Origin: Salipiger mangrovisoli
Lineage (GTDB): Bacteria > Pseudomonadota > Alphaproteobacteria > Rhodobacterales > Rhodobacteraceae
NCBI RefSeq assembly: GCF_015223355.1
Contig: NZ_JADFFK010000011.1
Coordinates: 62,001-126,000, forward strand
Reading direction: 5' to 3'
DNA length: 64,000 nt
Every line of letters starts with the position of its first letter. Position 1 is the stretch's first letter. The notes under the pieces were generated by a model, which was not told where the DNA came from, did not search any database, and saw nothing but the letters and a program-made list of their open reading frames with translations. The position numbers and the translations under genes were made by a program. This document shows, in pieces, positions 41,534 to 60,270 of this stretch.

Positions 41534-41535
41534 CT

Positions 41536-42591: not shown

Positions 42592-42604
42592 GTGGCGGGG
42601 TGCA

Positions 42605-42805
42605 TCACACGCCCGCCTTGGCCAACCGCTCCATCTCGGTAAGCCAAGCGTTGGCTTCCTGCCGGGACAACCGCCAGCCGCCTTGGTAGAGGTCAACCGC
42701 ATACATGCCCGTACCTACCTGAACCAAGCGCGCGTCGTAGGGCAGGGACACACGGGCGCGCAGAGCCTCTAGGCGGCGCTGTAGGAGGTCTCTGTGGCTG
42801 GCCAC
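42605..42805 (-). CDS. Small hypothetical protein downstream of the tape-measure gene
   Basis: 66 residues starting with GTG, which shares its first base with the tape-measure stop codon (TAGTG), implying translational coupling. The translation (LVQVGTGMYAVDLYQGGWRLSRQEANAWL) looks like a compact beta-strand then helix unit. Not recognised. It is the last gene of the minus-strand phage-like cassette. Confidence 0.6.
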   Translation of the reverse strand: MASHRDLLQRRLEALRARVSLPYDARLVQVGTGMYAVDLYQGGWRLSRQEANAWLTEMERLAKAGV

Positions 42806-45108
42806 TAGACGATCCTCCGCAAGCCATAGGTGGCCCGCATGGTGCGATCCATGCTGCCGTTGGCCATGGCGGTGCGCACACGGTTATCTATATACATATC
42901 AACGGTCTTGCGGCCCATGCTGTCCTGCCCCTCGGCCATGGTGATTTGGCTGCCATTGTTGTTGTTCACGTTAATAACAACGCCCGCCTCAGCCGTGCGC
43001 GGGGTGCCAGCCGAGTTTATAAACGCCGAGGCCGAGATGCGCCGGGCGGCGGGCTGGATGGCAAACTCAGGCAGCGCCGGTACGGCAACCCGAGCCAAGG
43101 GGGATATTGCCGTGGCAGCGTTAGGCACCGGCGAGGGGCTGGTGGTCACCGTGCCAGAGCCCGAGGCCGCGCCAAGTGCACTAAGAAGCAGATTGCTAAA
43201 TTGCTGCACCTGCTGGCTCAGCAGGAACCGGGCAATGTCGCGCAGGATGTTGTTGAGCATATCCTTAAAGGCATCGCCAACCGTGCTGGTGCCATCAATG
43301 AGGCTGTCGAACATGCCGGTAATGCCATCGGCAAAAATGCCAACTACGTCGGTGACCCCGCTAAGTTCCAACTCAAGCCGCCCCAGTTCTGCATGCAGCT
43401 CTGCCAGCTTGGCCTTGTACGCCTCCACGTCTGCGTCATCCAACAGCTTGGCCTTGCGTAGCGCGTCGTAATCCATCTCAAGCTGGTCAATCTCAGCCCG
43501 CACCTTGCCAATGGGAGTAAGGGTGGCTTTGATGTTATTGCGGAACGCCTCAAGCGCCTTGGTGGTCTCCTGCACCCGCTCCTTAGCGTCCTTGGCAGCA
43601 GCCGCAGTGGCAGCAGATGCCGCCTTGCTGGCAGCAGCCGCCTCGTCCTCAATTTTCTTGCGCCGCCGCAGGATTTCCTCCTGCTTCTCAAGCTCCGTAT
43701 ACGCCTTGTCCCGGTAAGCCGCCGCAGCCGCCGCTTGTTCCTCAAGTTTGGCGTTGGCCATGGCTTCTTCGTACTTGAGATCCACCGCCTTGCGCAGACC
43801 AGCAATCTGCACGTCAATAGCGTCACCGCCAGCCTCGAGAACCTGTAGCTGCGTCTCGTCAATGATGTTCTGAAGCGCCAGCCCCTCAAAGCTGGCCTTA
43901 AGCGCAGAGACAGCAGCGGCGGCACGGTTGAAGTTTTCAGCAATGGCGGCGCTGGTGCCTACCTGCTGGTCCATTACCAGCGAGAGCGCGCGCTCAATAA
44001 CTATACGCTCACGCGCCGAAAGCTCCATGCCATCGTAAGAGGTAAGGAGGCTGGCAACAGATGCCGCAATCTCCTCGCTGGAAAGCTTCTGGTTGTTGAG
44101 AATAGCGTCAACGTTAGACACCAACCCGCTGAGCTGGCCGCCAATGCTGCCCTCAATATCAATAATGTCCTGAAAGTAGTCGCGGACCAATTTGGCAGGA
44201 CCAACCTGCTCCTTGAGCAAGTTGGTATTGCGCGCCCGCAAGGCTTCCTCAGTCGCCTCGTAGCGCGCGATGTTGCGCCGCGCATTAGCAACCTGATTGT
44301 ACGCCTCAAGCTGCGCCGCGTTCATCTTGTCCGTGCTGCCAGCTATGCGAAGCATCTGGCCTTCGATGCCAGCTAGAGCAGCATCCATCTCCGTAAGGCT
44401 AGACGCCTTGGCAAGATCGCGGAACCTATACTCAAGCTGTTGCGCCTGCTCATTGGTGCCACCAATGGAATCCCTGATGCGCTCCCAACGGTAGTCAAGG
44501 AAATCAAACCACCCCGTGTCAGGGTTAAAATCGCCAAGCGCCTTAAGCTGCTCCGTCATATCAAGGAACGCGCGCCGCTTCTCAATCTGCAACAGCGTCT
44601 TATCGAGGTCCGCCAAATCCTCGTTGAACGTGCCCGTCTGCTTCACAACATTGGTGATGCTGCCAAGGTTGTTGTTGAGGCTGCTGGTGTAGGTATCCAA
44701 GCTTTTGGACGCCTTCTCAGACGCCGCCGCAATCTCCTCAATGCTCTTGCCCATGTCCAACAACACAGGGGCCAGCGCGGCAGCAACCGCCACGAATGCG
44801 CCAATGCCAATGCCCAACGCGCCAAAGCTAGACAATAGCTGTGGGAGCTGCTGCCCTAGTGCCTGCGTGGCACTTACACCACCCCCAAGCTGAACAGCCA
44901 AATCCTGCACCTGATAGCCGGTGTTCTGCATGGCTTGGTTGAACTGCCGCTGCTTGCGCGTAAGACCATCTTGGTTCTTGCCAAACTGCTGCGTCTGCCC
45001 GTTCACCTTGCGGATCACGGTGTTGTACGCAGTGAGCGTCTTGCGCACGTCGTTGAGGCGTTCCGCGCCCACAACGTCAATCTGTAGCCTGTGGTGTACG
45101 TCAGCCAT
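42805..45108 (-). CDS. Phage tail tape-measure protein
   Basis: 767 residues. The N-terminus (LQIDVVGAERLNDVRKTL) and the long helical body are typical of tape measures. A hydrophobic stretch (FGALGIGIGAFVAVAAALAPVLLDMG, ~95-120), long Ala/Glu/Lys coiled coil (~440-590), and a lambda-type C-terminus (FKDMLNNILRDIARFLLSQQ, then SMDRTMRATYGLRRIV) are visible. Tape measures fix siphovirus tail length and pass DNA through the envelope. Here no tail tube, baseplate or capsid gene accompanies it. It overlaps the downstream small gene by one base. Confidence 0.85.
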   Translation of the reverse strand: MADVHHRLQIDVVGAERLNDVRKTLTAYNTVIRKVNGQTQQFGKNQDGLTRKQRQFNQAMQNTGYQVQDLAVQLGGGVSATQALGQQLPQLLSSFGALGIGIGAFVAVAAALAPVLLDMGKSIEEIAAASEKASKSLDTYTSSLNNNLGSITNVVKQTGTFNEDLADLDKTLLQIEKRRAFLDMTEQLKALGDFNPDTGWFDFLDYRWERIRDSIGGTNEQAQQLEYRFRDLAKASSLTEMDAALAGIEGQMLRIAGSTDKMNAAQLEAYNQVANARRNIARYEATEEALRARNTNLLKEQVGPAKLVRDYFQDIIDIEGSIGGQLSGLVSNVDAILNNQKLSSEEIAASVASLLTSYDGMELSARERIVIERALSLVMDQQVGTSAAIAENFNRAAAAVSALKASFEGLALQNIIDETQLQVLEAGGDAIDVQIAGLRKAVDLKYEEAMANAKLEEQAAAAAAYRDKAYTELEKQEEILRRRKKIEDEAAAASKAASAATAAAAKDAKERVQETTKALEAFRNNIKATLTPIGKVRAEIDQLEMDYDALRKAKLLDDADVEAYKAKLAELHAELGRLELELSGVTDVVGIFADGITGMFDSLIDGTSTVGDAFKDMLNNILRDIARFLLSQQVQQFSNLLLSALGAASGSGTVTTSPSPVPNAATAISPLARVAVPALPEFAIQPAARRISASAFINSAGTPRTAEAGVVINVNNNNGSQITMAEGQDSMGRKTVDMYIDNRVRTAMANGSMDRTMRATYGLRRIV

Positions 45109-45110
45109 GG

Positions 45111-45389
45111 CTATTCAGTCCCCCATGCCGTCATCCTGCCGCGCGGTGTAAGCTGCGAACCACGCCACTCCGGGCGCAGCATTTTGCGGTAAGACCCTCG
45201 GGCATCGCTGCCCGCAAGCCGCGCCAGATACTGCTCGGCGGGCACAACCTCCACGAGCTTGTTTGTAAGTAAGTTGGTTACCTCAACCACCGGCAGGCCA
45301 TCGCATTCCGTCAGACGCGCACGGTAATTGCTGGGCACCATGTGACGGAGCCTGCCAAGGCGGGCTTTAAGGATTGCCACACGCCTCAT
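45111..45389 (-). CDS. Hypothetical phage-cassette protein, 92 residues
   Basis: Basic at both ends (RRVAILKARLGRLRH, SYRKMLRPEWRGSQL) with a central strand-rich part (LPVVEVTNLLTNKLVEVVPAEQYL). Not recognised. It starts inside the stop of the preceding gene (4-base overlap) and stops 2 bases before the tape-measure start, where tail-chaperone genes often sit, but no frameshift site was seen. Confidence 0.65.
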   Translation of the reverse strand: MRRVAILKARLGRLRHMVPSNYRARLTECDGLPVVEVTNLLTNKLVEVVPAEQYLARLAGSDARGSYRKMLRPEWRGSQLTPRGRMTAWGTE

Positions 45390-45637
45390 TGCGCGCCCTC
45401 CCCGCCAAGCGGGGCAGGATTAGGCCGACGTGCCGCGCACCATTCCTTGCCGCGCGCCCATGGGTAGGTGACCTCTGCCCCGCCTTGCCCCTGCGTGTGC
45501 TGCACAGTGATCCCGTAGTAATTACTCCCGCGCACCACCCCTGTGACGGTGCCGCCACCGGCTATGGGCGCGCGAGCCCATAGCTGAATCACATCCCCAG
45601 GTTCGAGCTCCTGCACGAAGTTGAGTTCCGTACTCAT
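45386..45637 (-). CDS. Hypothetical phage-cassette protein, 83 residues
   Basis: A small beta-rich protein (ELEPGDVIQLWARAPIAGGGTVTGVVRG, then YYGITVQHTQG), possibly an SH3-like barrel. Overlaps both neighbours by 4 bases. No known family assigned. The short basic/proline C-terminal tail is probably disordered. Confidence 0.62.
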   Translation of the reverse strand: MSTELNFVQELEPGDVIQLWARAPIAGGGTVTGVVRGSNYYGITVQHTQGQGGAEVTYPWARGKEWCAARRPNPAPLGGEGAQ

Positions 45638-46320
45638 TGCACCGCCTCCGTGAAGGGTTTCGCCAAGGCCAGCGTGTAAACCGCAGCCGCTTTGCCTATC
45701 TCGGAGGCCAAGTGCTGACAGACCTCGGCGCTGCTGTAGAACAGCGTCGTGCTACCCAAGTTTATAAGGTTGGCCACCCCCGTAACGTGCTGCCGCAAGA
45801 ACACCGGGCAGACCTCAGCCACCGGCAGACCCTCGGTAACCAACTGGCGCTCTATGACGCGGCCCACGGTGAGGATAAGCGTCTCAAAGGTGATGCACAT
45901 AAGCAGAGCAGCGCGCATGTGCGCGTTAAGCACCGCCGGGCTGAGACCCATGGCCTGCGCCTGCTCCCAGTCGTCAGGCGCAATGGCCACCCGCTCGTGA
46001 GCCAGCGCAGGAAACAGACCCGCGCCAAGCCGCAGCGCCTCATGGCGGGTAAGCTGCACCCGTGGGTCAAACAGCGCGGTAGCCGCAGGGCCAGCACAGA
46101 CGCCTAAGGGGTGGAACGGCATCTTGCGCATACTGCCATCGTTGTTGCGCCAGTAGCCGTTGCACTCAGCGTAAAACCCGCGCGCGTCCGTGCCGCAGTG
46201 GATCGTAATACGATCCGCCCCCGGCCTATCGGGAAGTTGGGTAGCGTAAGCGACCGCATGCGCCGCCTCGTGGATGGCCAAGGCGAGGTCAATTTGTTCC
46301 GGTATGGCGGTGCTGGTCAT
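45634..46320 (-). CDS. M41-like zinc metallopeptidase-type protein of the phage cassette
   Basis: 228 residues with ALAIHEAAHAVAYATQ near residues 13-28, the HExxH zinc signature in the M41 (FtsH-peptidase-like) context, and GVCAGPAATALFDP resembling the downstream M41 Gly/Ala motif. No AAA domain or membrane segment. M41-like stand-alone domains occur in phages and plasmids with unknown role. Coupled by 4-base overlaps at both ends. Confidence 0.7.
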   Translation of the reverse strand: MTSTAIPEQIDLALAIHEAAHAVAYATQLPDRPGADRITIHCGTDARGFYAECNGYWRNNDGSMRKMPFHPLGVCAGPAATALFDPRVQLTRHEALRLGAGLFPALAHERVAIAPDDWEQAQAMGLSPAVLNAHMRAALLMCITFETLILTVGRVIERQLVTEGLPVAEVCPVFLRQHVTGVANLINLGSTTLFYSSAEVCQHLASEIGKAAAVYTLALAKPFTEAVQ

Positions 46321-46967
46321 GGCTTGCCCTTTGCTTCTCGCACAGCTTGTTCGGCGTTTGTTCTCGCAACGATTTTGGCAACTTCCTTACGTGAGGTGTC
46401 CTCTTGGCTTTCCGCCCCCATGACCTCGGCCAGCGCGTCAGCCGCCGCCGTGCATGCGCGCTGGGCAACCTCCTGCGGCACCAGATCGCACAGCCGCCAT
46501 TCCAGTATGCCTTGGTTGAAGCCATCGCGCAGCGCCTTGGCCAACCGCTGGAACCGGCTCACGCCAAGCTGATCCTCCATGTGCTGCACCGCCAAAACAT
46601 TCTTGGCCAAGCGCACGTCAGCGTTGGCCCCCGGCATGCTGCGCACCAAGACAACGTCAGCAGGCGACAACCCGGCCTTCTCAGCCAGCGCCCCAAACTC
46701 GTCGTTTCGGAGATACTGCACGGCATCCTTTACCGCCGCAGCCGGGCCAATGGCACACAACGCAGCAATGCGGCGGCTGACCTCGAAATCCGCAGTGCTG
46801 GCCAACACGTCGCCCACCTTGCAAATCACGTGCCCGCTGGCGCTGCGAATGGCTATCTCAACCGTGGCCTCGCTATAACGCGAAGGGGCCAACTCACACA
46901 CCGCAGCGGCAGTGCTGAGCAAATGCCGAAGCTCGTGCTTGCTTATGGAGACGGCCGAATTACCCAC
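46317..46967 (-). CDS. Hypothetical phage-cassette protein, 216 residues
   Basis: Predicted start is GTG at 46967. Mostly helical, no signal peptide or membrane segment; ends with a Lys/Glu-rich tail (RKEVAKIVARTNAEQAVREAKGKP is helical). The segment ISKHELRHLLSTAAAVCELAP may be a helix-turn-helix-like start but no fold is certain. Overlaps the M41-like gene by 4 and the upstream gene by 8 bases. Confidence 0.62.
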   Translation of the reverse strand: MGNSAVSISKHELRHLLSTAAAVCELAPSRYSEATVEIAIRSASGHVICKVGDVLASTADFEVSRRIAALCAIGPAAAVKDAVQYLRNDEFGALAEKAGLSPADVVLVRSMPGANADVRLAKNVLAVQHMEDQLGVSRFQRLAKALRDGFNQGILEWRLCDLVPQEVAQRACTAAADALAEVMGAESQEDTSRKEVAKIVARTNAEQAVREAKGKP

Positions 46968-47220
46968 GGCTAGACCCCTCCCAATGCCGCTTGAGAGAGG
47001 CGGGGGGATGGCCCTTTACCGTCTCAGACTTGCGGGTGCCAACGGGCTCGAAGCGGGCTCGGATGGATTTAAGGTTCTCGCGCGCCATGGTCATTGCCGC
47101 ACTGCGTAAAAGGGCGTTACCGTCAATGTTCTCCAGTTGCTGCTTGGTCCAATCCCGCTCCTCTATGAACATTTCGGTAATGGCGTCGAGCATGGCCTTT
47201 TGCGATATTTGTCCCCTCAT
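46960..47220 (-). CDS. Hypothetical phage-cassette protein, 86 residues
   Basis: From ATG 47220, which overlaps the preceding stop as ATGA. Helical (LDAITEMFIEERDWTKQQLENI), with a basic C-terminal half (ENLKSIRARFEPVGTRKSE). Not recognised. Part of the same translationally coupled cassette. Confidence 0.6.
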   Translation of the reverse strand: MRGQISQKAMLDAITEMFIEERDWTKQQLENIDGNALLRSAAMTMARENLKSIRARFEPVGTRKSETVKGHPPASLKRHWEGSSRG

Positions 47221-48086
47221 GCGCGTGACCCCTCCCAAATTGTCGCCACGTTATCCAGCACAGCCTTTTGAGCCGTGGCCTTGCGCCGTTTCAGAAGTGC
47301 GTTGCGCTCGCTCGCCCGAGCCTGCACCCAAGCTTTTGCGGCTTTCTTGGCCTCAGACACTGGGAGGCGAGGCAGAACATTCTCCATGTCCGCAACCGGC
47401 TCGTATTTGGCCAGGATTTCGCGGGCAGGCAGAGTCGGTCGGCCCACCTCTAATACTTTCTGCCAAGCGGATTGCGTGGAGACGCCTTTTTCCCGTGCCA
47501 TCTCAAATGCTGCTTGGAGCATATGGCTGCGCTCTGCCGCGCTAGGATCGTCAGACAGCGCCACCGCATGCGTAACCTGTTCGCGCATGTGCGCGTCCAT
47601 CTCCTCCGCGCGGGCGGCAACAATGTCCCGCTCTTGCGTAAGATGGCCAAGGGCCACCTTAAGCACCTCAAGCGTCTCGGAAAGCTCGGGCACATCGGCA
47701 TCGGGCTGCATCATGCGCAGGGTGCGCAGCGATGCCTCAACATCCGTTGCCAAAGGGACGCTCTCGCTAGGCGGGCCAACAGCAGATTCATCTATTGGCT
47801 GCCACTCCTCGCCCGCAGCCGCCGCGCCAAGCGTGTTCATAACCTGCTGGATTTCCAAGATGGCCGCGTCAATTTCGACCAGCAGACGCAGCACCAAGTC
47901 TGCCAGTTGGTGCCCTTGCTCAAGAATGCCCATGACGTCATCAAGCGGTGTCTTGTTGCGGATGCCCAAAGCCAAGCACTGCCGCCGCAGCTCACCGCTC
48001 ATATGCCGCGCAACATGAGCACTGGCAGAAATGACCCAGCCATCGCCAAGATCGTACGAAAGCGGACGCAGCTTCTTTAGGAGCAT
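47217..48086 (-). CDS. Hypothetical helical phage-cassette protein, 289 residues
   Basis: Almost wholly helical with probable coiled coil around residues 135-180 (LSETLEVLKVALGHLTQERD) and a basic C-terminus (RASERNALLKRRKATAQKA). Not recognised. It overlaps its neighbours by 4 and 10 bases. Size and helicity would suit a scaffold or virion-internal protein, but that is speculation. Confidence 0.65.
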   Translation of the reverse strand: MLLKKLRPLSYDLGDGWVISASAHVARHMSGELRRQCLALGIRNKTPLDDVMGILEQGHQLADLVLRLLVEIDAAILEIQQVMNTLGAAAAGEEWQPIDESAVGPPSESVPLATDVEASLRTLRMMQPDADVPELSETLEVLKVALGHLTQERDIVAARAEEMDAHMREQVTHAVALSDDPSAAERSHMLQAAFEMAREKGVSTQSAWQKVLEVGRPTLPAREILAKYEPVADMENVLPRLPVSEAKKAAKAWVQARASERNALLKRRKATAQKAVLDNVATIWEGSRA

Positions 48087-48328
48087 TTGCTAACCCCCGT
48101 ATCAGCCAAGAGCGCCGGGTCCATGCCAGTGGCTAGGAGGTCGCCGAGCAGAACCTCCTCAACCTCCCGTAGCTGAGGCTTTACCAGCTTGGGCGCGTTC
48201 TTGCTGTGACGCAGGAGATACCTGACGCGCTCCAACGTGTGCAGTGCATCGGCCTGATACTGCGCAAGCGCAATGGCATCGGCTGCGGTCGGTTGGGCAG
48301 GGATAAGTGACGCAAACTGTGGTCCCAT
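48077..48328 (-). CDS. Hypothetical protein opening the coupled phage cassette
   Basis: 83 residues from ATG 48328 (a GTG at 48337 is the alternative). Helical: AADAIALAQYQADALHTLERVRYLLRH. It overlaps the next gene by 10 bases. Not recognised. Confidence 0.58.
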   Translation of the reverse strand: MGPQFASLIPAQPTAADAIALAQYQADALHTLERVRYLLRHSKNAPKLVKPQLREVEEVLLGDLLATGMDPALLADTGVSKCS

Positions 48329-48424
48329 CTGGCACACCTAATGTTGCGGGGGCTAACAAAAGGGTACTTCAATGGGCAAAGGGCGTGAATGAATAATGCT
48401 GTATACTCAGGGTGTTAGTTTACA

Positions 48425-48715
48425 CTAGCGCCCAATACCGCCAACTCTGGCCCGGTCATTGAAGATCCGATACCGCTGCCTGACTTCGGGTGCCTCCTCC
48501 TGCGCGGCAAGAGCGTATAGGTCTTCGTAAGCCTCCCCCGGCGAGGCGCGCACCAGCGACAGGGGCCAATCGCGAATTGCCGCCTCACGAACCAGCCAGT
48601 GCGCCTCGCGCAAGGTGAGTGCGCGCGCCGTGCCATGTTGCAACTTGCGGCGGTGCTGGCGGCTCTGGGAGGTGTGACTGCGCACCGTCTCAGGGTTCTC
48701 CTGCGGGTGGAACAC
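48425..48715 (-). CDS. Hypothetical protein, 96 residues
   Basis: GTG start at 48715, supported by AGGAGG six bases upstream. The N-terminal third is basic and polar (RSHTSQSRQHRRKLQHG), then a helical region (LTLREAHWLVREAAIRDWPL, then PGEAYEDLYALAAQEEAPE). Not recognised. It could bind nucleic acid. Another open frame on the same strand (48415-48636) is considered a shadow because its start lacks a ribosome site. Confidence 0.52.
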   Translation of the reverse strand: MFHPQENPETVRSHTSQSRQHRRKLQHGTARALTLREAHWLVREAAIRDWPLSLVRASPGEAYEDLYALAAQEEAPEVRQRYRIFNDRARVGGIGR

Positions 48716-48767
48716 CGGGGGCCTCCTCTGCGTCTCGTATGCGCTTGCTAGGACGGGTGCGACCCAT
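48690..48767 (-). CDS. Possible 25-residue leader peptide
   Basis: ATG 48767 with GGAG seven bases upstream opens a 25-codon frame (MGRTRPSKRIRDAEE...) that ends 26 bases inside the 96-residue gene. Such an overlap could couple translation of the downstream gene. Strongly basic. It may be a chance frame. Confidence 0.25.
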   Translation of the reverse strand: MGRTRPSKRIRDAEEAPGVPPAGEP

Positions 48768-48785
48768 GGGCGGCTCCTGTGGAGG

Positions 48786-49262
48786 CTAGTTTAGGATGCT
48801 TGCCCACCCACTTTCGGCATCTTTGGTCTCCGCCAAGACGCCTGCGGCGTTGGCGCGACTGCGGCTGACCACCCCACGGCGGCTGCCAGTAAGGCCGAGG
48901 CATTCCAGCGCGCTTTGCATCACGCGAAGCTGCTGCCGCATCGCACTGCTCATCGCCAAGTAGGTTTTGACGTCACCCGCCGCCTTTGCGGCATCGGCCT
49001 GAGCCTTGCAGAAATCAGCCTCGTCACGGCCGAGCGCGGCCTTGCGGACCATCTCAATGTCAGCCGGGGTTAGGTTGTCGTAGGTGCGCTGAACCTCGCT
49101 GGCCAGCATCGCGAACCGGAGCTTGCCGTTGGCGGTGAGGTCAGAAGGAAGGTCAATGCCGAGGTGATCGGTCAGCTTGCGGGCGCGGGCGGCGGGGCCG
49201 GATGGGCGACCAGACTTTTTGGGCGGCTTGTTGGTGGGCATTGAAGGTGTCTCGCGTACCAT
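48786..49262 (-). CDS. Possible phage small terminase (TerS)-like protein
   Basis: 158 residues from ATG 49262 (ATG 49241 is the alternative; neither has a clear ribosome site). A basic N-terminus (NKPPKKSGRPSGPAARARKL), a helical middle, and a C-terminal pattern LRVMQSALECLGLTGSRRG recall P27-type small terminases, whose ends read like x-EFGLTP-x-SR. TerS binds pac/cos DNA and hands it to the large terminase. No large terminase follows, which is the pattern of phage satellites. The assignment is tentative. Confidence 0.4.
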   Translation of the reverse strand: MVRETPSMPTNKPPKKSGRPSGPAARARKLTDHLGIDLPSDLTANGKLRFAMLASEVQRTYDNLTPADIEMVRKAALGRDEADFCKAQADAAKAAGDVKTYLAMSSAMRQQLRVMQSALECLGLTGSRRGVVSRSRANAAGVLAETKDAESGWASILN

Positions 49263-49384
49263 TGGTACAACATTACGTCACCCATTTCGCTTTGCAAACT
49301 GAGTAGAGGCGGCTGCTTGTTTCCGGGCCACCGAGTCAGTAGCGTCCGGAGGATTTCAGAGTTGCGTCCGCAGGAGAGTCCTTG

Positions 49385-50899: not shown

Positions 50900-51657
50900 A
50901 CTGGTTTTGAGTGCGGGAAAGGCTTGCTTGGGGTTCGGCAGAGCCGAGCCTTTTGGCACTCTTCAAAGTGCAAAGAAGAGCCCCCTGCGCGGTGTGGACA
51001 CCCCCGAGGCCCCTATAATTTGGACGCCCCCCCGTCTATCTGAAGCCCCATGCTCGGCCGCGCTGCGATCAGTTGCTCTGGCGCAACACGTGACCTCGTG
51101 CGCAGCGCAACGGCGTCGGGCCTCAGTGCAGCGGCAAGCAAGGCGGGCATCGCATGGCCGATGCTAGGGCATGGCAGGCAGGCAGGGGCGGGCGCGCAGC
51201 ACAACGCACAGGCGGCGCGCACAGAGGGCAGCGTGGCGGGGCTAGCCCGCCCCACCTAGCTTAAGGTCACCGTCCCACGGGCGCGCATACCCGCGTCCTC
51301 GGTGACCCCGCCCAGCATAGTGAAGCCGAACACCAAGAACAGGGCCACTGCATGCGCTGTCCGCTGCCGCCGCCCGGCGTACACCCGGCAAGCGAAGCGG
51401 TGACGATGTGAGGCGAGCACATGGCAAGCCAAAGACCAAGGGGCGCGGCAGGGGTGGTGTAGGCCGAGGACGGTGTGCCTAACTGCGAGACACGAAACCC
51501 GCCAGCAACCGGCCACAGGAAGCGGATGCTGGCGGGCCCGCCAAGGTTGGCTGACATCACCGTAGCGCGACCAGCCTATCGGGTGCAGGGGAACGAGTGA
51601 AGCAGGGGCCGTGCCAATGTCGGAGCCATTGGTTTTACAACGGCTTAACCATGTTTG
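50900..51657. other. Gene-poor segment of the element
   Basis: 758 bases between the nuclease gene and the repeat-rich segment. Several short open frames occur on both strands (for example 51050-51259 plus and 51256-51516 minus) but none has a ribosome site or a protein-like composition. I see no structured RNA. It may contain an unrecognised small gene or the remains of deleted phage genes. Confidence 0.4.
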
Positions 51658-51664
51658 GTGTCGG

Positions 51665-51712: not shown

Positions 51713-51838
51713 GTCCTTCTTTTCTTATACTTATTCTATTTGGTGTTAGGAGTGTCAGGAGAATAGAGTAAATAGAAAAAACGCAGCCAGTGGTGCAGCG
51801 GCTGCTCTATTAGCAAAAAACCGAGAAAAGTCCCTGTG

Positions 51839-51942
51839 CCGACACCCCCGACACCCGATGATGTAAATGGTTGTACTTGCGCAGCAAAAAAGGTGTCAGC
51901 AAATTTGGTCTGCTGACACCGCCCCGACACCCCCGACACCCG
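51839..51942. repeat. Iteron-like 19-base direct repeats
   Basis: CCGACACCCCCGACACCCG occurs exactly at 51839-51857 and 51924-51942. Each copy is itself two CCGACACCC units. The inverted 16-base form lies at 51658-51673, and single units at 51678-51684 and 51698-51706. They cluster within 300 bases of the end of the helicase gene, where a replication origin or repressor sites could be. The role is inference. Confidence 0.65.
51886..51920 (-). terminator. Intrinsic terminator of the primase-helicase unit (minus strand)
   Basis: On the minus strand a 10 bp stem (GGTGTCAGCA, 9-base loop, TGCTGACACC) is followed directly by six T residues. It lies 113 bases beyond the helicase stop and between the two 19-base repeats. 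Confidence 0.75.
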
Positions 51943-52032
51943 GTGGCCAAAATGTCCTGAGAAGCTTTGCCTTTTTAGTAGGGCATGGCTGCACCCTGCA
52001 AGCAAGCAAAAACCGAGGGAGCTGCCAAGGTA

Positions 52033-53616
52033 TCAGTGGCGGCGCTTGTTCGGGGCGTAGCTGGCCGAAACGCCGTCTGAGCCGTCCTCCTCCCACTGCA
52101 TGCTCTGGGACCACTCCCCGCCGTCATCCCACGGGTAGGGCTGGTACTTCATGTCCCATGCGTAGCGGGCTTCGGAAAGCAGGGGGGCCAGATAGAGCGG
52201 TCCCTGCCTGACACGCTTCCGCGCAAAGCCGATGTTCTCAAAAATGGTCTTAAGTTCCTTGGTGAACGGGTTCTTATCTTTACGTCCGATGCCGTGCAGC
52301 TTGCAGAAGCTGCCGTAGGCTTCCTCCAGCCCTTCCACCTCTTTCTTGCCCCGGCAGCTTACCGGCACCTGAAGTTCCTTGGTCCTGGCGTTCTCCACAG
52401 TGCCCGTGGGCAAGGTGCCCATTTCCAGCATGTAGAGGACGAACTGCTCGACGCTGCTCATGCCGCTGAACATCTGTTCACGCAACGCAGCGGTCATGGG
52501 GATATGTGAGCGCGGGTGCCAGTTGGCCAGCGGGCGCATGAGCAGGTCGTACAGCATGGCCTCGTAGCCGCCCGCCTCCATTTGTTCGTTCAGCCGCCCG
52601 AAGTACGCATGGTCTTGCTTGTGCTTGTCCGACACATCGAAGCAGGCGAAGCGGCGCTCCCCCAGCGTGGCGGGTACAACGGTGCGCTGGTTCGCTGCCA
52701 TAACCAAGTTCACGTGGCTCTCATCCGACATGATATCCACCCCCTTGGCTTCCACCGCGAGCACGTTCTCCGTGATGAGGCCCTTTAGAACGGCCTCGGC
52801 CTGCCGGTCATCGGGTGCCAGCGCCTCATCGGCAAAGATCAGCTTCTTGTCCTGCATGTGGCTGTTGAAGCGGCCCGTGACATGCTGCGAGCTGGTTACG
52901 TGCATGGCGTGTATTCCGAACAGGGCGACCAGTGCGTTGGCGAAGGTGCCCTTGCCGTTGCCCTTGTTGCCACGGAAGACCAGTGCGACCTCGGCCTTGC
53001 GGTTAAGGTTCTGCAAGGTGAATGCGGCCCAATTTAGAATATACTCGGCGTACTCCTTGTTTCCCCCGGCCAGGACCTCACGGATATGGTATGCCATAAG
53101 CGACCAGTCGCTGTGCTTGGGGGCATAGCCGAAGCCGCGCCAGAGGTTAAAGTTTCCGTCAACGCTGGGAGCCTCGCCGGGATAGAAGCCGATGCTGGTG
53201 TAGAAGTTCCGGGTGCGGTTGTACCAGTAGGAACTGAGAGGCACGTACTTGTGCTTATTCTCCTCCTCCTCCGGGTTGGTAAGAACCGTGATATTGCCCC
53301 ACGCGCTGCGAAAGTTTCCGACCGTCATTGCTTCAAACTGGGTGAAGCGCAGGTGCTTCATGCGCTTGGCTTTCGCCATGAGCACACATGATTTTCCGCC
53401 ACGGGACCGTATTACGTGGAAGATGCCGTTCATCGCCGCCAGCAGCGTGTCCAACTCGTTGCCGGGCGTGAGGATGGCGTTGTTGCCGCTAAGGTTGTTG
53501 ATGTGCATGTGGGTGTCGCGCACCCGGTTGAAGTTAAGACGCGTGTTTTGTGCATAAATGATACGGCCATCGGGCAGCACAACTTGACCCTCGGGGGTGT
53601 TTTCATTTGCAGACAT
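52033..53616 (-). CDS. SF3-type phage/plasmid replicative helicase (DUF5906/D5-like)
   Basis: 527 residues. Walker A is FRGNKGNGKGTFANAL (~225), Walker B LIFADEALAPDD, and motif C-like VNLVMAANQRTVVPA, with the sensor ERRFACFDV. This matches the helicase half of primase-helicase proteins from phages and satellites. It would unwind the element's origin together with the primase-polymerase encoded 104 bases upstream on the same strand. The start MSANENTPEG follows that gene's stop. Confidence 0.88.
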   Translation of the reverse strand: MSANENTPEGQVVLPDGRIIYAQNTRLNFNRVRDTHMHINNLSGNNAILTPGNELDTLLAAMNGIFHVIRSRGGKSCVLMAKAKRMKHLRFTQFEAMTVGNFRSAWGNITVLTNPEEEENKHKYVPLSSYWYNRTRNFYTSIGFYPGEAPSVDGNFNLWRGFGYAPKHSDWSLMAYHIREVLAGGNKEYAEYILNWAAFTLQNLNRKAEVALVFRGNKGNGKGTFANALVALFGIHAMHVTSSQHVTGRFNSHMQDKKLIFADEALAPDDRQAEAVLKGLITENVLAVEAKGVDIMSDESHVNLVMAANQRTVVPATLGERRFACFDVSDKHKQDHAYFGRLNEQMEAGGYEAMLYDLLMRPLANWHPRSHIPMTAALREQMFSGMSSVEQFVLYMLEMGTLPTGTVENARTKELQVPVSCRGKKEVEGLEEAYGSFCKLHGIGRKDKNPFTKELKTIFENIGFARKRVRQGPLYLAPLLSEARYAWDMKYQPYPWDDGGEWSQSMQWEEDGSDGVSASYAPNKRRH

Positions 53617-53720
53617 GGTGGGTACTATATCCGTGTGAAAGATGAGCTACTTGGGGCCGCACTAGTTGCGGCCCTTTGTTTGCCCACGGTTTAAGGACAC
53701 GGGGGCCGTCCCTGCCTGTG

Positions 53721-55007
53721 CTACGCCATGGCGCTACCTCCGCTAAGTTTCGCTGAAATGGCATCCATAGCCGCGTGTGCGGCGGCCTGTTGCTGGGCAC
53801 GATGCCAGCGGTCGGCCAGCGCCGCAGTGCGCAAGCTGGGCACGACACCCACCTCGGCCAGAAGCTCGTATGCCGTCATGGCATCGGCCGCTTCCTGTTT
53901 AAGGACGCGTACGATGGTGCCGAAGCCGACCATGGTATCCTTGTCCGTCTCAAAGGTGCCGTAGCGGTACTCACACTCTGACGGATCGGCCCTTTCCGCG
54001 TCAGCGGGCTTGTACTTGTCGCCGTTGGCTGACCACTGCTCCCAAAGCTGAAGGCCAGCGGGGCCACCGCCGGTCATGAGGTGCAGGGCCATGCCGATCT
54101 GATACCAGTTGTCGTGGCCGAGATCGGGATCCAGCAGGTCAAGCAGCGCAGCCATCTCAGCCGTGGTGACCCACGGCAGGGCATCGAAGCGCGTGACGCC
54201 CACATACCCATGGCCCTGATCGGCCCACAGCATTTCGGCATGCGCAGCGGGAGCGGGCAGGACGATGGGCGTGGGCTCAAGCATGACCTGTTGGGTGATC
54301 GTATTCCCCAGGTCAGAGCCGACGCCATTGGGCTTGCGCTGCCCTTCCTGTTTGAGCACGGCGAGCAGCCATGCGGGGGCGGGGGCAATGGGCACCTCGC
54401 CGGGCGCACGGCCTCTTACCCAATGGTATGACCCCGTGCGCCTGTGACGCGAGGGCGGGGCTATAACCATGCCGCGCATGCCGCGGACATCGACGCCCGG
54501 CAACACCTCAGTACCGTTAACCACATGGCAGGATTCCGGGACGGTGAAATACAGGTGCCAGCCGCCGCTTGCCGTGCGCGCGGTTACGGTCACAGGGGCA
54601 ACGCCATGGGGCTCGCAGAGGGCTTTGAAGGCTGCAACGCCATCGGCTTTGTGACCGCCCGGTGAGGGCACATCCACATCAATGACCATGAGACGGTTGC
54701 CGCAGGGGAGAAGTTCGCCGGTGGGGATGCCAATCATGGCGCGCGGGCTGTATTCCCAGTACCGGCGCACCACCTCGGCATCCCCGGTGTTAGACCACCG
54801 CTGGCCGTTGTACAGGCGATTGCGCTTGCCAATGATGCCCGCCTTTTGACCTGCCTTGGTTACGTAGGTCGGAAACACCCGGAAGCCGAAAGCAACCAAT
54901 GCCAGCGCGGCCTCAAGCATGCCGCCGCCATTGCCGCCTTTTTGTATAGACGCGGCTATATCAGGTTGCTTGGCTGTTTTGGCTGAGGCAATATGGGAGC
55001 TAGGCAA
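53721..55007 (-). CDS. Bifunctional primase-polymerase with PriCT-type C-terminus
   Basis: 428 residues. A TTG start at 55007 is preferred since AGGAGA lies 5 bases upstream; ATG 54920 is the alternative. The prim-pol catalytic motifs are LMVIDVDVP (DxD), ASGGWHLYF (GGxH) and VDVRGMRGMVIAPPS. After residue ~270 a PriCT-2-like helical domain appears (NWYQIGMALHLMTGGGPAGLQLWEQWS). It would synthesise primers for the element's own replication. With the SF3 helicase it makes a split version of fused primase-helicases such as those of phages and satellites. Confidence 0.88.
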   Translation of the reverse strand: MPSSHIASAKTAKQPDIAASIQKGGNGGGMLEAALALVAFGFRVFPTYVTKAGQKAGIIGKRNRLYNGQRWSNTGDAEVVRRYWEYSPRAMIGIPTGELLPCGNRLMVIDVDVPSPGGHKADGVAAFKALCEPHGVAPVTVTARTASGGWHLYFTVPESCHVVNGTEVLPGVDVRGMRGMVIAPPSRHRRTGSYHWVRGRAPGEVPIAPAPAWLLAVLKQEGQRKPNGVGSDLGNTITQQVMLEPTPIVLPAPAAHAEMLWADQGHGYVGVTRFDALPWVTTAEMAALLDLLDPDLGHDNWYQIGMALHLMTGGGPAGLQLWEQWSANGDKYKPADAERADPSECEYRYGTFETDKDTMVGFGTIVRVLKQEAADAMTAYELLAEVGVVPSLRTAALADRWHRAQQQAAAHAAMDAISAKLSGGSAMA

Positions 55008-55041
55008 GTCATTCTCCTTGGTTGTGACAAGGTTTATGATC

Positions 55042-55074
55042 GCGGCCCTGAGCGCGGCATACGCTCAGGGCCGC
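55042..55074. promoter_or_regulatory. Perfect 13 bp hairpin upstream of the primase gene
   Basis: GCGGCCCTGAGCG (55042-55054) and CGCTCAGGGCCGC (55062-55074) enclose a 7-base loop, 35 bases before the primase start. No T-tract follows on either strand, so it is more likely an operator, origin element or attenuator than a simple terminator. The remaining gap to 55466 shows no gene and is AT-richer, so it probably holds the promoter. Confidence 0.6.
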
Positions 55075-55466
55075 TACCATTTAGCGGCGATGGGTGTGAG
55101 AAGTACTTTGGCGGGCCGTCGCCCGGTGGTCCCATAAGAACCGAAAGCCCGCATATGGTGCCGCGCCGCCCCTCCCTTGGCAACACAAAATCACCCAAAT
55201 TGGCCCGGCCAATTGGCATTTAAGTGTCTGGGCTACAATAAGTTTCTGGCATCGTGGGGCTGGCCGAACCTTAGCTGCAAAGCCAAGCCTTAGTATGACG
55301 CCGCTGCATGAGACACGAATTGTAGGTGATGAGGTTTAGTCATCGAACGATGCCGACTGTGGAAACTGGGTTTGCTAATCTGACTCGTGTGGCGTTCGCC
55401 AAATTTTCGACTTCTAAGTTCGTTTGGTTGGTGTGGAGATGCGATTCATAAAGGTTGCAAATTACT

Positions 55467-57755
55467 TCAGGGTAAGGGGGCAAGAAGATCAGCAATATCC
55501 CGCAGGAGTGGCTCAAGCTTGCTATGGTCCACCTCCAACATATCCTCCTCAATGAGTGAAGTATGGTGTGCGCCAGAGTGGAGCGTATTCGCGCAGTCTC
55601 GAATATTTTTCGCTACGTCAGTTCTTATGGCAGGATCTGGTGCGGCTCCCAAATCGAGCTTCTTCTTGATATTTCCCAACAGCACAGCCGATCGGAAAGT
55701 CGGGTCAGGAGATTTTAGAGCAAGCGTAGCTAGTGCGTAGATTGCATGTTCCAACGTGTGCCATCCCGTTTTGTGCGTACTTGCACGAAATGCCCAGGAA
55801 AGCAGGTAGCCGGCGACCGCTTCGGAAACTTCAGAGGCATCGTTATCTTCGGCAAAGGATGCCGCTTCATACAGCGTCTCTGCTATGTCGTAAGAGCCGA
55901 CGAACCCGAGAGTTTCTTTGTCTGTTGGGATGAAGGTAAAGACCCCTAAGAGTCGCTGTGCTATATTTCGAAGGTCATTGCTCAAAGATGCATCGCAGGC
56001 GGGAGAGGCGGCGGCGGAAATAAGGACATTCGCCATATGGTGGAGCCAGGTGAAGGTCTCAAAGGCAAAGTTCGAGCGTTTCTCGATAGCGTAGAGCATC
56101 TGCTCCTTCGCTGAGCTTTGGGTGCCATCTGCCCAGTTGCTCAGATTCCAGATAACGTTCTTGGCTGCTTCGTCGTCCGCTGGCGCTTCGGCCAGTCCGT
56201 TTGCGATTTTCACCAGCCTGTTCAACAGCGCACCAGAGTAGAAGGGAGACAGGTAGTGCGAGGAATGATCGAACGGCCCGACACTCGGAAGGCTGATGAC
56301 AAGACGCGAGATGTTCGCCATGGCATTGCGTATCGCGTCGGCGGCTAAACCAACGTCATGCTCTTTGAGCGTTAGGAGCTGACCGCTTAGCATTGCCAAT
56401 TGTGCGACCCCGGTGGAGATGATCGGTCGGTAGTTCTCGCGTGTGACACCCGTGCAAGCGATGCTTCCTATGTCACGCACGAGATCGAGAATGCTGTCGG
56501 GTTCCTCTGTTCGCATCAGTCTTGCAGCACACGTCCCCATTTGGCGGACGCCTTCCATAATGATATCAGGTCTGTTCAGCGGAAGTAGCTGCTGGACTTC
56601 ATTAGTAAGATAGTTGGTCGCTAGATGCGTGTGGGTTCGCGATGCGCGCGAAGAAGAATAGCTGATGTTGAGATACAAGATGGCCAAGCGCGTTATTGCT
56701 TGGAGGTTTTGGCGGGTAAGTTGTTCGTCGCCCCGTGCTACCGCTATATGGCCTGTTTGCCGAAGGCACTCCAGAGTGTGGTTGATGAAGGCATCAGTTG
56801 AGAGGTCTGCGTCTGCAAAGGGATTGCTCGCAATAAACGTTCTCCCCTTCGTGCTGATGTAGGCATTGTTTATGGCCAATATTGCATTGATGGCTGCGGC
56901 GCTGACCTCGTGGTCGCCTTGCTCGGCGTAGCGCCGTGCAAACGAGACAGCATATTGAACACTTTTCGTGGCCTCGAGCGTCCAGCTTGGGTTCTTCTGA
57001 AAGAAGATCAGACGCGCGGTGTCGAACTTATGCTTTTCAGGTTCCCCGACTTGTGGTGCCTCACCAGCAATGAGGGGGCCGGTTCGTGTCGCGCGCTTGC
57101 CCCACATGCGGAGATCGCGCTCGGATTGGAGTACAATTATTTCAAGCTGTTTAAGTGGGTTAACCAGGAGGAGTGCGCGGCGGTAGCCGTATAGAAAGAG
57201 TGCTAAAATCAGTCCGATCAGCCATACGGTTCCGAGCGTAACGAGACCAATCCTCTCCTGACTCACAAAGAGCGAGATGCCAGAGATCGCCAGCGCAAAT
57301 ATGAAGGTTCCAGCGAAGGCAGCCAGCAGGCGCGGGTCTTGGCTCAGCTTTCGGAATAGGCCATGTGGCATGCGCTCAATGTTGACCTGCATCGAAAACA
57401 AGACGAGCGAGGACACAATCGCAGCCGCACCAACCAGAGCGCCGCCCAGAGTGATCAGGGCGGACGTGAACGCAGCTAAGCGCGCCTCAGTTGTGAACAA
57501 CGGGCCGAGATGCTGCTGCACGTCGGTGACAGTGGCTAGCGAGAGGGCTGCTAGAGCAGCCCAGATCACAATAACTAGGCGAGTGCTATTGTGCTTGCGC
57601 CATTCGGCAAACCTGAAGTGCATCTTTGCAAGTTTGTGGCAGAGGAGGGCGTATTCCTGAAGAAACCGAAATCTCAGCTGTCTCGCTAGCTGCGTGAGCT
57701 TCTGGCCCATAGATCGCGCCTTCGAGCGCAAACACGCCAACCTACTAAATCCCAT
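55467..57755 (-). CDS. Four-helix membrane protein with long helical C-terminal region (cargo)
   Basis: 762 residues from ATG 57755 (GTG 57776 is the alternative). A basic N-terminus precedes four hydrophobic segments within the first ~190 residues (LVIVIWAALAALSLATV, LITLGGALVGAAAIVSSLVLF, FAGTFIFALAISGISLF, TLGTVWLIGLILALFLYGY), reminiscent of DUF2254-type membrane proteins. The remaining ~560 residues are helical, possibly HEAT/ARM-like, and cytoplasmic. GC content is below that of the host genes. It lies alone between the replication and integration modules, a typical cargo position. A membrane-acting defence or exclusion role is conceivable but unproven. Confidence 0.72.
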   Translation of the reverse strand: MGFSRLACLRSKARSMGQKLTQLARQLRFRFLQEYALLCHKLAKMHFRFAEWRKHNSTRLVIVIWAALAALSLATVTDVQQHLGPLFTTEARLAAFTSALITLGGALVGAAAIVSSLVLFSMQVNIERMPHGLFRKLSQDPRLLAAFAGTFIFALAISGISLFVSQERIGLVTLGTVWLIGLILALFLYGYRRALLLVNPLKQLEIIVLQSERDLRMWGKRATRTGPLIAGEAPQVGEPEKHKFDTARLIFFQKNPSWTLEATKSVQYAVSFARRYAEQGDHEVSAAAINAILAINNAYISTKGRTFIASNPFADADLSTDAFINHTLECLRQTGHIAVARGDEQLTRQNLQAITRLAILYLNISYSSSRASRTHTHLATNYLTNEVQQLLPLNRPDIIMEGVRQMGTCAARLMRTEEPDSILDLVRDIGSIACTGVTRENYRPIISTGVAQLAMLSGQLLTLKEHDVGLAADAIRNAMANISRLVISLPSVGPFDHSSHYLSPFYSGALLNRLVKIANGLAEAPADDEAAKNVIWNLSNWADGTQSSAKEQMLYAIEKRSNFAFETFTWLHHMANVLISAAASPACDASLSNDLRNIAQRLLGVFTFIPTDKETLGFVGSYDIAETLYEAASFAEDNDASEVSEAVAGYLLSWAFRASTHKTGWHTLEHAIYALATLALKSPDPTFRSAVLLGNIKKKLDLGAAPDPAIRTDVAKNIRDCANTLHSGAHHTSLIEEDMLEVDHSKLEPLLRDIADLLAPLP

Positions 57756-57917
57756 TGCGCACCCCAGAAATATCACTTGCGCGAATCCTAAGGGATCAGT
57801 GGGCCGTATGCGATAGCTTAGGGTGCGCGTTTCAGAAATTCTGGAGACTTGTTCGGGCCGTATTGAGGCCGTGGCCTGCGGGCGCGACTGTAGGCGTGTG
57901 CGTAACCGCCGCCCGTC

Positions 57918-58460
57918 TCACGCATGCAGCGGCACGACATTGCCCTTGCACACCCCCTGCGGCTCCCCCTTGGTAATCCGAACCGGAACCGCAGGGCGCA
58001 TCCCACAAAAGGCGGCCTTGCGTTTCAGCGCCACCCCCAGGACCGAGTTGGCCAACCGCTCACTAGCGCCGCCATACTTGGCCACACAGGACGAGCAAAC
58101 CGGCAGGCCGAGGGTGCGCGGCAGGAGCCGCACAGGACTGCCGCTGAAACCAAGTACCACCTCGGCGGCAGACAGACCCACGTAAGCCAGAACGCCATCG
58201 GCTGAGACGTAGCAATCACACTTGCCGCACTGGATAGGCTGGCCATGCCCACCCACAAGCTGATGCCCGAGGACGTCGGCGGCGCTGCACGTGACCCCCT
58301 TCGCCTTGGGTAGCCAGCTATGAGCCGTGGCAAGTGCCATCTGCACACCGGGCCGCTTGCCCCGCGCCTTGGCAGAAAACAGAGCCAGCACCTCACGGTG
58401 CGACAGGCCAATGTGAACGGCACTGGGGGAGCGCCCATAATGCATCTGCGTGTTGTTCAT
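57918..58460 (-). CDS. Hypothetical cysteine-rich (CxxC) protein divergent from the integrase
   Basis: 180 residues from ATG 58460, with GGAGG eight bases upstream. Two CxxC pairs, CGKCDC (~79-84) and CSSC (~123-126), could form a zinc ribbon. The N-terminal part IGLSHREVLALFSAKARGKRPG looks like a basic helical DNA-binding segment. Its divergent position beside the integrase is where excisionase or control genes usually sit, but no known regulator family is recognised. Confidence 0.62.
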   Translation of the reverse strand: MNNTQMHYGRSPSAVHIGLSHREVLALFSAKARGKRPGVQMALATAHSWLPKAKGVTCSAADVLGHQLVGGHGQPIQCGKCDCYVSADGVLAYVGLSAAEVVLGFSGSPVRLLPRTLGLPVCSSCVAKYGGASERLANSVLGVALKRKAAFCGMRPAVPVRITKGEPQGVCKGNVVPLHA

Positions 58461-58778
58461 AATTCAGCCTCCGCTGCGATTGCGCAGGAGGCGGGTTCAG
58501 ATGCACATTGGGCTCACCAACGTTCACATGCATCGCCGCTGCCCCCAGCGGTTACAGAAGGCGCCCCTGACACCACATCAGGGGCGCTTTCACAGTGTGG
58601 CCTTAATGCAACCATGGGGCAATCTGACAGGCCCGGTATACAACTGATAAAATAGCACAATCAGCTTTCAGTTGCGCTGTTGCTCGACCTTTCCCGTGTT
58701 GTAACCTTCAGCCTTTACACGCACACATGTTTAGACCCACACTTGGCCTCAAAGCATAACAAAATAAGGCTAAAACCC
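58461..58778. promoter_or_regulatory. Divergent region before the integrase, with strong hairpin
   Basis: 318 bases without a gene. GCGCCCCTGA (58561-58570) and TCAGGGGCGC (58578-58587) form a perfect 10 bp stem with a 7-base loop, followed by three T residues on the plus strand. AT-rich sequence at 58610-58660 and 58740-58778 may hold integrase promoter elements. No RNA gene recognised. Confidence 0.5.
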
Positions 58779-60077
58779 ATGGCGAGTATCTCACGGACGC
58801 ACACCAAAGCGGGCAAAACCACCTTCCAAGTGCGCTGGCGACCTGCGGGCACACGCGACAGCAAGGCGCGCGCCAAGACGTTCCCTACACTGGCCGCAGC
58901 CAAAAAGTTCGCCGCCACGTTGGAGCTACAGCCGGGCAAGGGGAGCGAAGGCCGCATGACCTTTGCCCAGTACCGGGAGCAATGGCTGGCCTCCCAGTTC
59001 GCCCAAACAGAGGCAACAGGAAGCGGGCAGCGCGGGCTGTCACCAAGCACCGTCGCCGCATACCGGCTTGCCAGCGCGCATCTGCTGCCCACCTTGGGCG
59101 ACATGAAGCTAGGTGACATAACCAACGCAGACTGCCGCAATGCCATACAACATGTGGCCCGCTGCAAGAGCCCGGCTACCGTGCGCCTCACCCGCGCCTG
59201 CGCCCGCAAAATGTTCGGCGATTTGGTGGCGCGCGGCACCTACCAGACCAACCCCATGCCCACCTCAGCTGAGTTCCGCACCAGCGGGCCGCAGCGCCAG
59301 AAGCTCAAGTGCCCCACGCCCGACCAAGTGATGGCCATGGCGCAGCAAGCCACCAACATGCCCGACCGTGCGCTGGTCCTTATAGCCGCCTCAACCGGCG
59401 CGCGCCGCTCAGAGCTGGCCGGTCTGCGCTGGTGCGACTTAGACCTTGGCGAGCAGCCGCACATGCACATCAGGCGCACCGTGACGCTGCAATATGATGC
59501 CGAGGGCAAGCCCTACGTTGCCGTGCAGAACGTGGGCAAAACCGATAGCTCCCTGCGCGCCTTTCCCCTGTCCGAGCCCGAGGCCGCAATCCTGCGCAGC
59601 CTGCATGACGAGATGGTAGCAGCCGCCCGTCGCAACCGGGCCGACTGGTCGCCCAACGCCTACGTATGGCCGCGCGCCTTTACCGCACAGCACGAGCCTC
59701 AGAACCCCAAGAGCATGACCCGGCGCTTGGCCCGCATGCGTGACGCGGCAGGTATATCGCCGGATGTAAGCCCCATGCACGGGCTGCGCCACGCCAGCGC
59801 CACGCAGATGCTTGGCCGGGTGCCCACGGCCATTTTGGCCAAGCGCCTCGGGCACAGCAGCCCGGCAATTACCATGAGCATCTACACCCACCCGGATGAA
59901 ACCCACATGGCCGCTGCCGCTGATGCTGCCGGTGCGGCATGGGGGCAGGCATTGGCTGGTCTGCTTGGCGGCGCGCACACGGGCCAGCAAAAAGGGCAGA
60001 CACGCACACAGACACGCACACCAGCGGCGGAACCGGGGGGCAATGTGGTGCCCCTGCGTAAAGCCAACGGCTCCTAA
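58779..60077 (+). CDS. Tyrosine-type site-specific integrase
   Basis: 432 residues from ATG 58779 (MASISRTHTKAGKTTFQVRW); the open extension upstream has no integrase-like sequence. An N-terminal arm-type binding region and SAM-like core-binding domain (~60-160) precede the catalytic domain. Catalytic residues: Arg209 in TGARRSEL, Lys254, His334-x-x-Arg337 in MHGLRHAS, His359 in RLGHSS and Tyr369 in SIYTH. It would recombine attP and attB. It lies at the element's right edge, pointing outward to the ThDP-enzyme gene. Confidence 0.95.
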   Translation: MASISRTHTKAGKTTFQVRWRPAGTRDSKARAKTFPTLAAAKKFAATLELQPGKGSEGRMTFAQYREQWLASQFAQTEATGSGQRGLSPSTVAAYRLASAHLLPTLGDMKLGDITNADCRNAIQHVARCKSPATVRLTRACARKMFGDLVARGTYQTNPMPTSAEFRTSGPQRQKLKCPTPDQVMAMAQQATNMPDRALVLIAASTGARRSELAGLRWCDLDLGEQPHMHIRRTVTLQYDAEGKPYVAVQNVGKTDSSLRAFPLSEPEAAILRSLHDEMVAAARRNRADWSPNAYVWPRAFTAQHEPQNPKSMTRRLARMRDAAGISPDVSPMHGLRHASATQMLGRVPTAILAKRLGHSSPAITMSIYTHPDETHMAAAADAAGAAWGQALAGLLGGAHTGQQKGQTRTQTRTPAAEPGGNVVPLRKANGS

Positions 60078-60270
60078 AGCTCTTATAAATAAGACCCCGG
60101 CGCACCCCGCCATTTGGGATGTGCCATATACACCGGAACAAAGCGTTCTGAGCGGCGGCATTTCCGCGTGCCGCGCAAAGCGGTGGCGGATCGGCGTGCG
60201 GTGGTGCTTGCATCCCCCCGATGCAGCGCGCAGAAATCTCGAAAAGCGATCTGAGAGGGAGCGGGAGACG

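Follow-up and report, generated by a model that had tools for sequence, protein, structure and literature searches.

The window analysed here (64,000 nucleotides of Salipiger mangrovisoli DNA, contig NZ_JADFFK010000011.1, positions 62,001 to 126,000) contains an integrated island of 17.7 kb (42417–60146, attL to attR) that is probably a phage satellite: it would borrow the virion of a siphophage but supply its own tail tape-measure protein (TMP), and its particles would have chimeric tails. With somewhat less than even confidence, we also consider a broader version of this reading, in which the island represents an independent satellite lineage that has no capsid gene and acts at both ends of virion assembly, through a siphophage-type TMP that retains the tail-tip end of helper TMPs and makes the tails chimeric, and through a divergent small terminase (TerS) of its own that picks out satellite DNA. 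No other gene of the island is as informative as that for the TMP.

A predicted tape-measure protein in the minus-strand cassette

The open reading frame (ORF) at 42805–45108 on the minus strand, which codes for 767 aa, is identified as a TMP gene by profile comparison: it matches the Pfam family PF06791 at 7e-9 (36.1 bits, for a cut-off of 30.2) and five TMP PHROGs, the best being PHROG 1538 at 2.4e-17. It is the largest gene of a minus-strand cassette (42605–48337) that is translationally coupled, seven of the eight gene junctions being overlaps of 1–22 nt and the remaining one a gap of 2 nt. It also codes for the sole virion protein among the 18 island ORFs scanned against both Pfam and PHROGs (shorter ORFs, such as that of 66 aa after the TMP gene, were outside the scan); no large terminase, portal, capsid, tail tube or lysis family was matched by any of the 18. 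An initial annotation of this DNA had described a satellite-like element with a coupled phage-type cassette and no virion part. The cassette and the absence of the five gene classes just listed are borne out, but the profile hidden Markov model scan that it proposed finds the TMP that it had overlooked. Since neither a capsid nor a packaging motor was recognised but a TMP was, particles of the island are probably assembled from helper parts with the island's own TMP in the tail.

Related TMPs were found in two sister islands described below, G202a (PHROG 1538, 2.8e-16) and G207 (PHROG 167, 2.3e-10). All three satellite TMPs carry the motif [LM]DR[TQ]MRxx[YF]G near their ends, 15–18 residues before the C-terminus, and share it with the TMPs of six viral contigs (L144, L145, L146, L149, L152 and L153); of the 6746 open frames in the retrieved regions of satellites and their neighbours, only the three satellite TMPs have it. 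The 47-kb contig L145 codes for a major head protein, portal, head–tail adaptor, major tail protein and central fibre J (10 proteins scanned), and its TMP has C-terminal relatives at about 33% in annotated Pseudomonas and Stenotrophomonas siphophage records. The window TMP gave no match to phage records at 1e-5. The motif offers a concrete handle for finding helper phages.

In an unrooted tree built from the C-terminal 190 residues (8 rows, one of them on a very long branch), the three satellite TMPs form one group with a support of 97/100, and over the same residues their pairwise identity is 30–39%. Because they form a single group and have diverged this far, yet keep open frames of 603–767 aa together with the end motif, these proteins appear to have been in use within satellites for a long time. 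Nor does the window TMP have the look of debris: the related islands of the genus have the same cassette core, two of them with a full-length TMP and one with its last 36 residues. The gene just before the TMP gene in G202a and G207 (248 and 250 aa, respectively) matches PHROG 16336, of unknown function; compared with its positional counterpart in four of the viral contigs, it gave no significant result.

The island is precisely inserted

Comparison with congeners places the island exactly. Among the 19 congeneric genomes compared, 17 have both flanks on a single contig and separated by no more than 209 bp; in the remaining two, G208 and G212, adjacent flanks were not found. A joined-flank query from which the island had been removed aligns across the junction in congeners. 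In six genomes (G202, G205, G206, G207, G210 and G211) homology on the left stops exactly at 42426 and the right flank restarts 33–58 bp beyond that position. The decamer AACAAAGCGT occurs at 42417–42426 and again, in the same (plus) orientation, at 60137–60146, and these copies are the probable attL and attR cores. A repeat of this length is by itself at chance level (chance matches of up to 14 bp occur between the same stretches), and it carries weight as an att core because it sits on the homology breakpoint. The island thus occupies 42417–60146; the discrete element described in the initial annotation, which had given 42592–60112, is there, and the empty sites move its ends outward.

On the left the island is flanked by cheA (39410–42100, minus strand; CheW, HATPase and Hpt domains) and on the right by a gene for a thiamine-pyrophosphate enzyme. 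A candidate inverted pair was spotted by eye when the ends were compared: GCCGGGGTCTTA lies at 42406–42417 by the left end and its reverse complement at 60090–60101 near the right end.

A family of related islands

Four cassette proteins used as queries retrieved relatives of one of them, g216 (46317–46967, minus strand), from three of the 19 congeners (G202 twice, G206 and G207) and, in other genera of the family, from G141, G274, G391 and, weakly, G045. Seven further loci have the same cassette core, making eight with the window; this count leaves out G274b, which has the TerS-like gene only, and G045, where the match is weak and the frame contains stops. Loci found through the helicase have no core gene and stand outside the family counts; of the genomes concerned, G141 is used for its other locus, which was found separately via g216, and G247 for a side observation. 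At 1e-6, the g216 profile found four of 394 family genomes, including that of the window, so the island family is rare.

In all eight core loci, g216 is the neighbour of g289 (47217–48086, minus strand), a coiled-coil-like protein; the 92-aa protein g92b (46960–47238, minus strand in the window) was detected between them in six. An HExxH motif is present in seven of the eight g216 proteins, its first histidine being gone in G274a. No g216 relative was found in phage and plasmid records and no g289 relative in the genome_contigs collection, and a single-sequence fold of g216 was poor, with a predicted local distance difference test score (pLDDT) of 41.4. The TerS-like gene occurs in five core loci (window, G202a, G202b, G206 and G207). 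Full TMPs occur in three, of 767 aa in the window, 707 aa in G207 and 603 aa in G202a. G202b keeps a 36-residue TMP end beside an 815-aa gene of PHROG 8614, and at 1e-3 the satellite TMP profile matched nothing in G206, G391, G141b and G274a.

The islands of the genus form a narrow size class of 16.6–19.5 kb at different sites. That of G202b is 16.6 kb long with a 97-bp terminal repeat, that of G206 19.5 kb with a 58-bp repeat in a duplicated tRNA-Leu, that of G207 about 17.1 kb with a 37-bp, 84% repeat of a flank gene, and that of G202a 17.7 kb with a repeat of 14 bp, a chance length, at the end of a tRNA-Met. Several related loci have their own integrase, different replication proteins and different att sites. 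In 20 proteins, ten each of G202a and G207, PHROGs identified no portal, capsid or large terminase, and the matches were to integrase, primase/helicase, TMP and PHROG 16336, the remainder being weak; the other five related loci were covered by virion scans in part. Among the weak matches, the g289 relative of G207 reached a "virion structural protein" PHROG at 0.032 and another G207 protein reached Pfam Phage_attach at 0.028, under its cut-off.

The family also bears on whether the island is a strongly reduced prophage, its TMP being the leftover of a lost tail module, as the initial annotation had offered beside the satellite. We consider this distinctly improbable. A sole recognised virion gene is what such a remnant could show, as is a family in which five of eight loci lack a full TMP and one has the 36-residue end alone. 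Against it, the related islands share the cassette core despite their different replication proteins and att sites, the three TMPs remain open and group together while diverged to 30–39%, and the window TMP lies within a coupled operon. None of the eight core-bearing loci (five of them scanned in part) was seen to be a full prophage, so the reduced prophage has gained no support so far; the seven further loci with the same core support the satellite that the annotation had also named.

Two side observations concern the place of the TMP gene. The slot next to the TerS-like gene is occupied by the TMP gene in G207, by a methyltransferase and helicase pair in G206 (L121:12169–16887, between the TerS-like gene and g289), and by the 815-aa PHROG 8614 gene in G202b (L115:14411–16858). 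Since G202b and G206 have cargo where G207 has a TMP, this is a site for exchangeable genes.

A proposed helper-dependent cycle

In the cycle that we propose for the satellite, the island would integrate by its own tyrosine integrase and replicate by its own primase-polymerase (prim-pol) and superfamily 3 (SF3)-type helicase. Upon helper infection, the late cassette would be expressed, ending in the island's siphophage-type TMP, and capsid, portal, large terminase, tail tube, tail tip and lysis functions would be taken from the helper. The satellite TMP would replace the helper TMP in the tail, with its conserved C-terminus meeting the helper tail tip. The resulting tails would be chimeric, and by analogy the TMP would be the tail-length setter and the injection protein of the satellite particles. 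The 158-aa TerS-like protein may direct packaging to satellite DNA; for the core proteins g289 and g216, a part in head assembly is possible.

The satellite TMP might instead work outside particles, spoiling helper tails as a decoy or conferring immunity to the helper, which we think unlikely. The replacement of the G207 TMP by cargo in G202b and G206 would suit such a role, and satellite and prophage defences are known to act on tail assembly (PMC11364771, PMC12987554). On the other hand, the full length and the tip-end motif have been kept, which a decoy possibly would not need, and in one group of satellites, the PLEs discussed below, the satellite TMP has been shown to be part of the virion (PMC12987554).

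The island has two of the features by which satellites are generally recognised: it is an integrated element with an integrase and its own replication genes, and profile scans of 18 ORFs found no complete set of virion genes, the TMP being the only virion match. Phage-inducible chromosomal islands (PICIs) and P4-type satellites have an integrase and their own replication genes as well and depend on a helper, as the island would; for the small terminase of PICIs, the island has a tentative candidate (see below). Sid, Psu and AlpA are markers of P4-like elements; these families and Cpm were unmatched among the island ORFs scanned, whereas the island has a TMP. Further parallels are the PICI-like elements (PLEs) of Vibrio cholerae, whose size, about 18 kb, is similar to the island's 17.7 kb and whose recombinase is of another type than the tyrosine integrase.

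PLE1, PLE4 and PLE11 likewise code for a satellite TMP, and they rely on a helper for the virion, as the island would; that their TMP is put into otherwise helper-made tails in place of the helper's was first demonstrated in 2026 (PMC12987554). According to the same report, tails of PLE satellite virions are 10 nm shorter, deletion of the satellite TMP cuts transduction by 96–99.9%, and the benefit of the remodelling needs further work. PLEs also provide a hub protein and a chaperone for tail assembly, and their helper, ICP1, is a myophage (PMC12987554), whereas the island has a siphophage-type TMP, a tyrosine integrase and prim-pol/SF3 replication, with chaperone and hub families unmatched among its 18 ORFs. 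The island probably belongs to a satellite lineage unrelated to the Vibrio PLEs.

Other tmp-bearing satellites, namely PLE-like elements and capsid-forming PICIs (cf-PICIs), are named as putative only in the legend to Extended Data Fig. 10 of PMC12987554. As here, their TMP is predicted to be coded by the satellite, but cf-PICIs code for capsid genes (PMC12987554) and no head family was found among the 18 island ORFs. Putative E. coli satellites with a capsid, a TMP and a baseplate component resemble the island in having a TMP without most tail genes, but their capsid proteins and RepA_N replication protein (PMC10448857) were not detected in it. AH14b of Pseudomonas sp. ANT_H14 is an integrated satellite of 16.8 kb with a primase/helicase and a homologue of tail assembly protein I; unlike for the island, its helper has been demonstrated, and its description reports no TMP as far as consulted (PMC4936722). 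The open-licence literature, which mostly does not extend to subscription papers, yielded in the portions consulted neither a satellite that combines a siphophage-type TMP with the lack of a capsid nor one from Alphaproteobacteria. Our best reading is that satellites with their own TMP are a recently recognised kind and that a TMP-bearing one of the alphaproteobacterial type is new.

A second such lineage, unrelated to the first and with a TMP of the siphophage type, would point to the repeated evolution of tail hijacking. Because the sister islands have a long, short, remnant or no TMP, the benefit of an own TMP can be tested in this family: proteins of 603, 707 and 767 aa, a trace, or none form a natural series in which to ask how a tail ruler of its own benefits a satellite.

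A candidate small terminase

The 158-aa protein (48786–49262, minus strand) is tentatively the island's own small terminase, a divergent one of the P27-like type. Its family has a pattern reminiscent of P27-type TerS, to which profile comparison points weakly. Against a P27 TerS profile of 18 rows from 61 family genomes (two rows may be one gene), hhalign gave a p of 0.0021 and a score of 27, where 40 column shuffles gave at most 16. With the G274b member added, p was 4e-4 and the score 31.5 (maximum of 100 shuffles, 19.9), and p was again 4e-4 with three further members.

Other searches returned little. The G274b member matches the P27 profile weakly (17 bits) and its first 56 residues reach a TerS PHROG at 0.42 only, the whole protein matching no terminase. 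Five members of the family searched against PHROGs at E up to 10 gave no family, a Pfam scan of three relatives gave no terminase, and a comparison with the PDB gave nothing meaningful; the single-sequence fold of the 158-aa protein was poor (pLDDT 52.5). A TerS PHROG is matched by genes that lie upstream of g289 in G141b and G391 (8.6e-9 and 0.0035, respectively). The TerS proteins of these loci and of G247 show no profile alignment with the 158-aa family, so position upstream of g289 is the sole link to those of G141b and G391.

These two TerS matches upstream of the core also speak against a non-phage integrative element or defence island that acquired phage genes by chance, which we regard as very improbable. 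Two low-GC cargo genes without a family would fit such an element, and the small terminase is unproven; no conjugation gene was present among the 18 ORFs scanned, however, and the island has its own replication module and belongs to a narrow size class.

Search for a helper phage

Several results weigh against a satellite that provides its own TMP and TerS. At 1e-6, a family-wide search with the TMP profile (two candidates scored per genome) found 29 of 394 genomes, including that of the window; with one genome per genus and the window aside, none of the 31 TMP matches listed reaches the C-terminal end of the profile, and therefore no likely helper was found as a prophage. In the window's own genome, a second integrase lies near a phage portal (G000:C44 70681–79818, in L186), which is probably a prophage; the satellite TMP profile matches nothing in this region, which was considered as a helper. 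Nor was a separate gene for a tail-assembly chaperone or a hub, as in PLE11, recognised in the window. The absence of a full TMP from five of the eight core loci means that the protein is inessential to the island family. As for the TerS, the 158-aa protein has no Pfam or PHROG match, and the hhalign probabilities with P27 TerS are only 13–36%.

Other genes of the island and its surroundings

The integration and replication genes named in the initial annotation are all supported by family matches: the tyrosine integrase (58680–60077, plus strand) by PF00589 at 7.1e-21 and PHROG 1 at 5.8e-59, the prim-pol with its PriCT_2 domain (53721–55007, minus strand) by PF09250 at 6.9e-33 and PF08707 at 3e-13, and the SF3-type, D5-like helicase (52033–53616, minus strand) by PF19263 (DUF5906) at 5.5e-21 and PHROG 1156 at 8.2e-45. 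No relative came up when viral contigs were scanned with the helicase, g216 and TerS-like proteins, and a helicase search of the genome_contigs collection found one Geobacter locus only. In L063 (Geobacter sp. AOG1), there is an island-like pair of a prim-pol (31%) and a helicase (38%).

The two cargo genes of that annotation likewise correspond to two low-GC ORFs without a significant family in Pfam or PHROGs: one of 505 aa (49382–50899, plus strand), in which we noted by eye a D..ECK pattern like that of PD-(D/E)XK nucleases, and one of 769 aa with a membrane-like N-terminus (55467–57776, minus strand). The remaining minus-strand ORFs are short. Within the cassette, that of 66 aa (42605–42805, outside the library scans) overlaps the end of the TMP gene; proteins of 92 aa (45111–45389), 83 aa (45386–45637) and 228 aa (45634–46320) have no family in Pfam or PHROGs, the last being metallopeptidase-like solely by a motif, HEAAH, near its N-terminus; and neither the 86-aa protein (48077–48337) nor the 96-aa ORF beyond the cassette (48425–48715) was identified by the same scans. 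Just outside the island, at 62124–62936 on the plus strand, lies a gene for a protein with an Mrr-type restriction endonuclease domain (PF04471, 2.6e-18).

A 180-aa protein (57918–58460, minus strand) that matches no family in Pfam or PHROGs has Cys pairs, which make it a possible zinc-binding regulator. It has a 30% relative in L074, beside a related helicase in G247. The G247 element with this helicase and 180-aa gene (L075:1420–3842, G247:C62) has a TerS (PHROG 5601, 8.8e-12) and, two genes past it, a head maturation protease domain (PHROG 80, 9.9e-17) that corresponds to the first part of PHROG 617 and lacks the capsid part of that profile. The G247 element may be a satellite with a prohead protease of its own.

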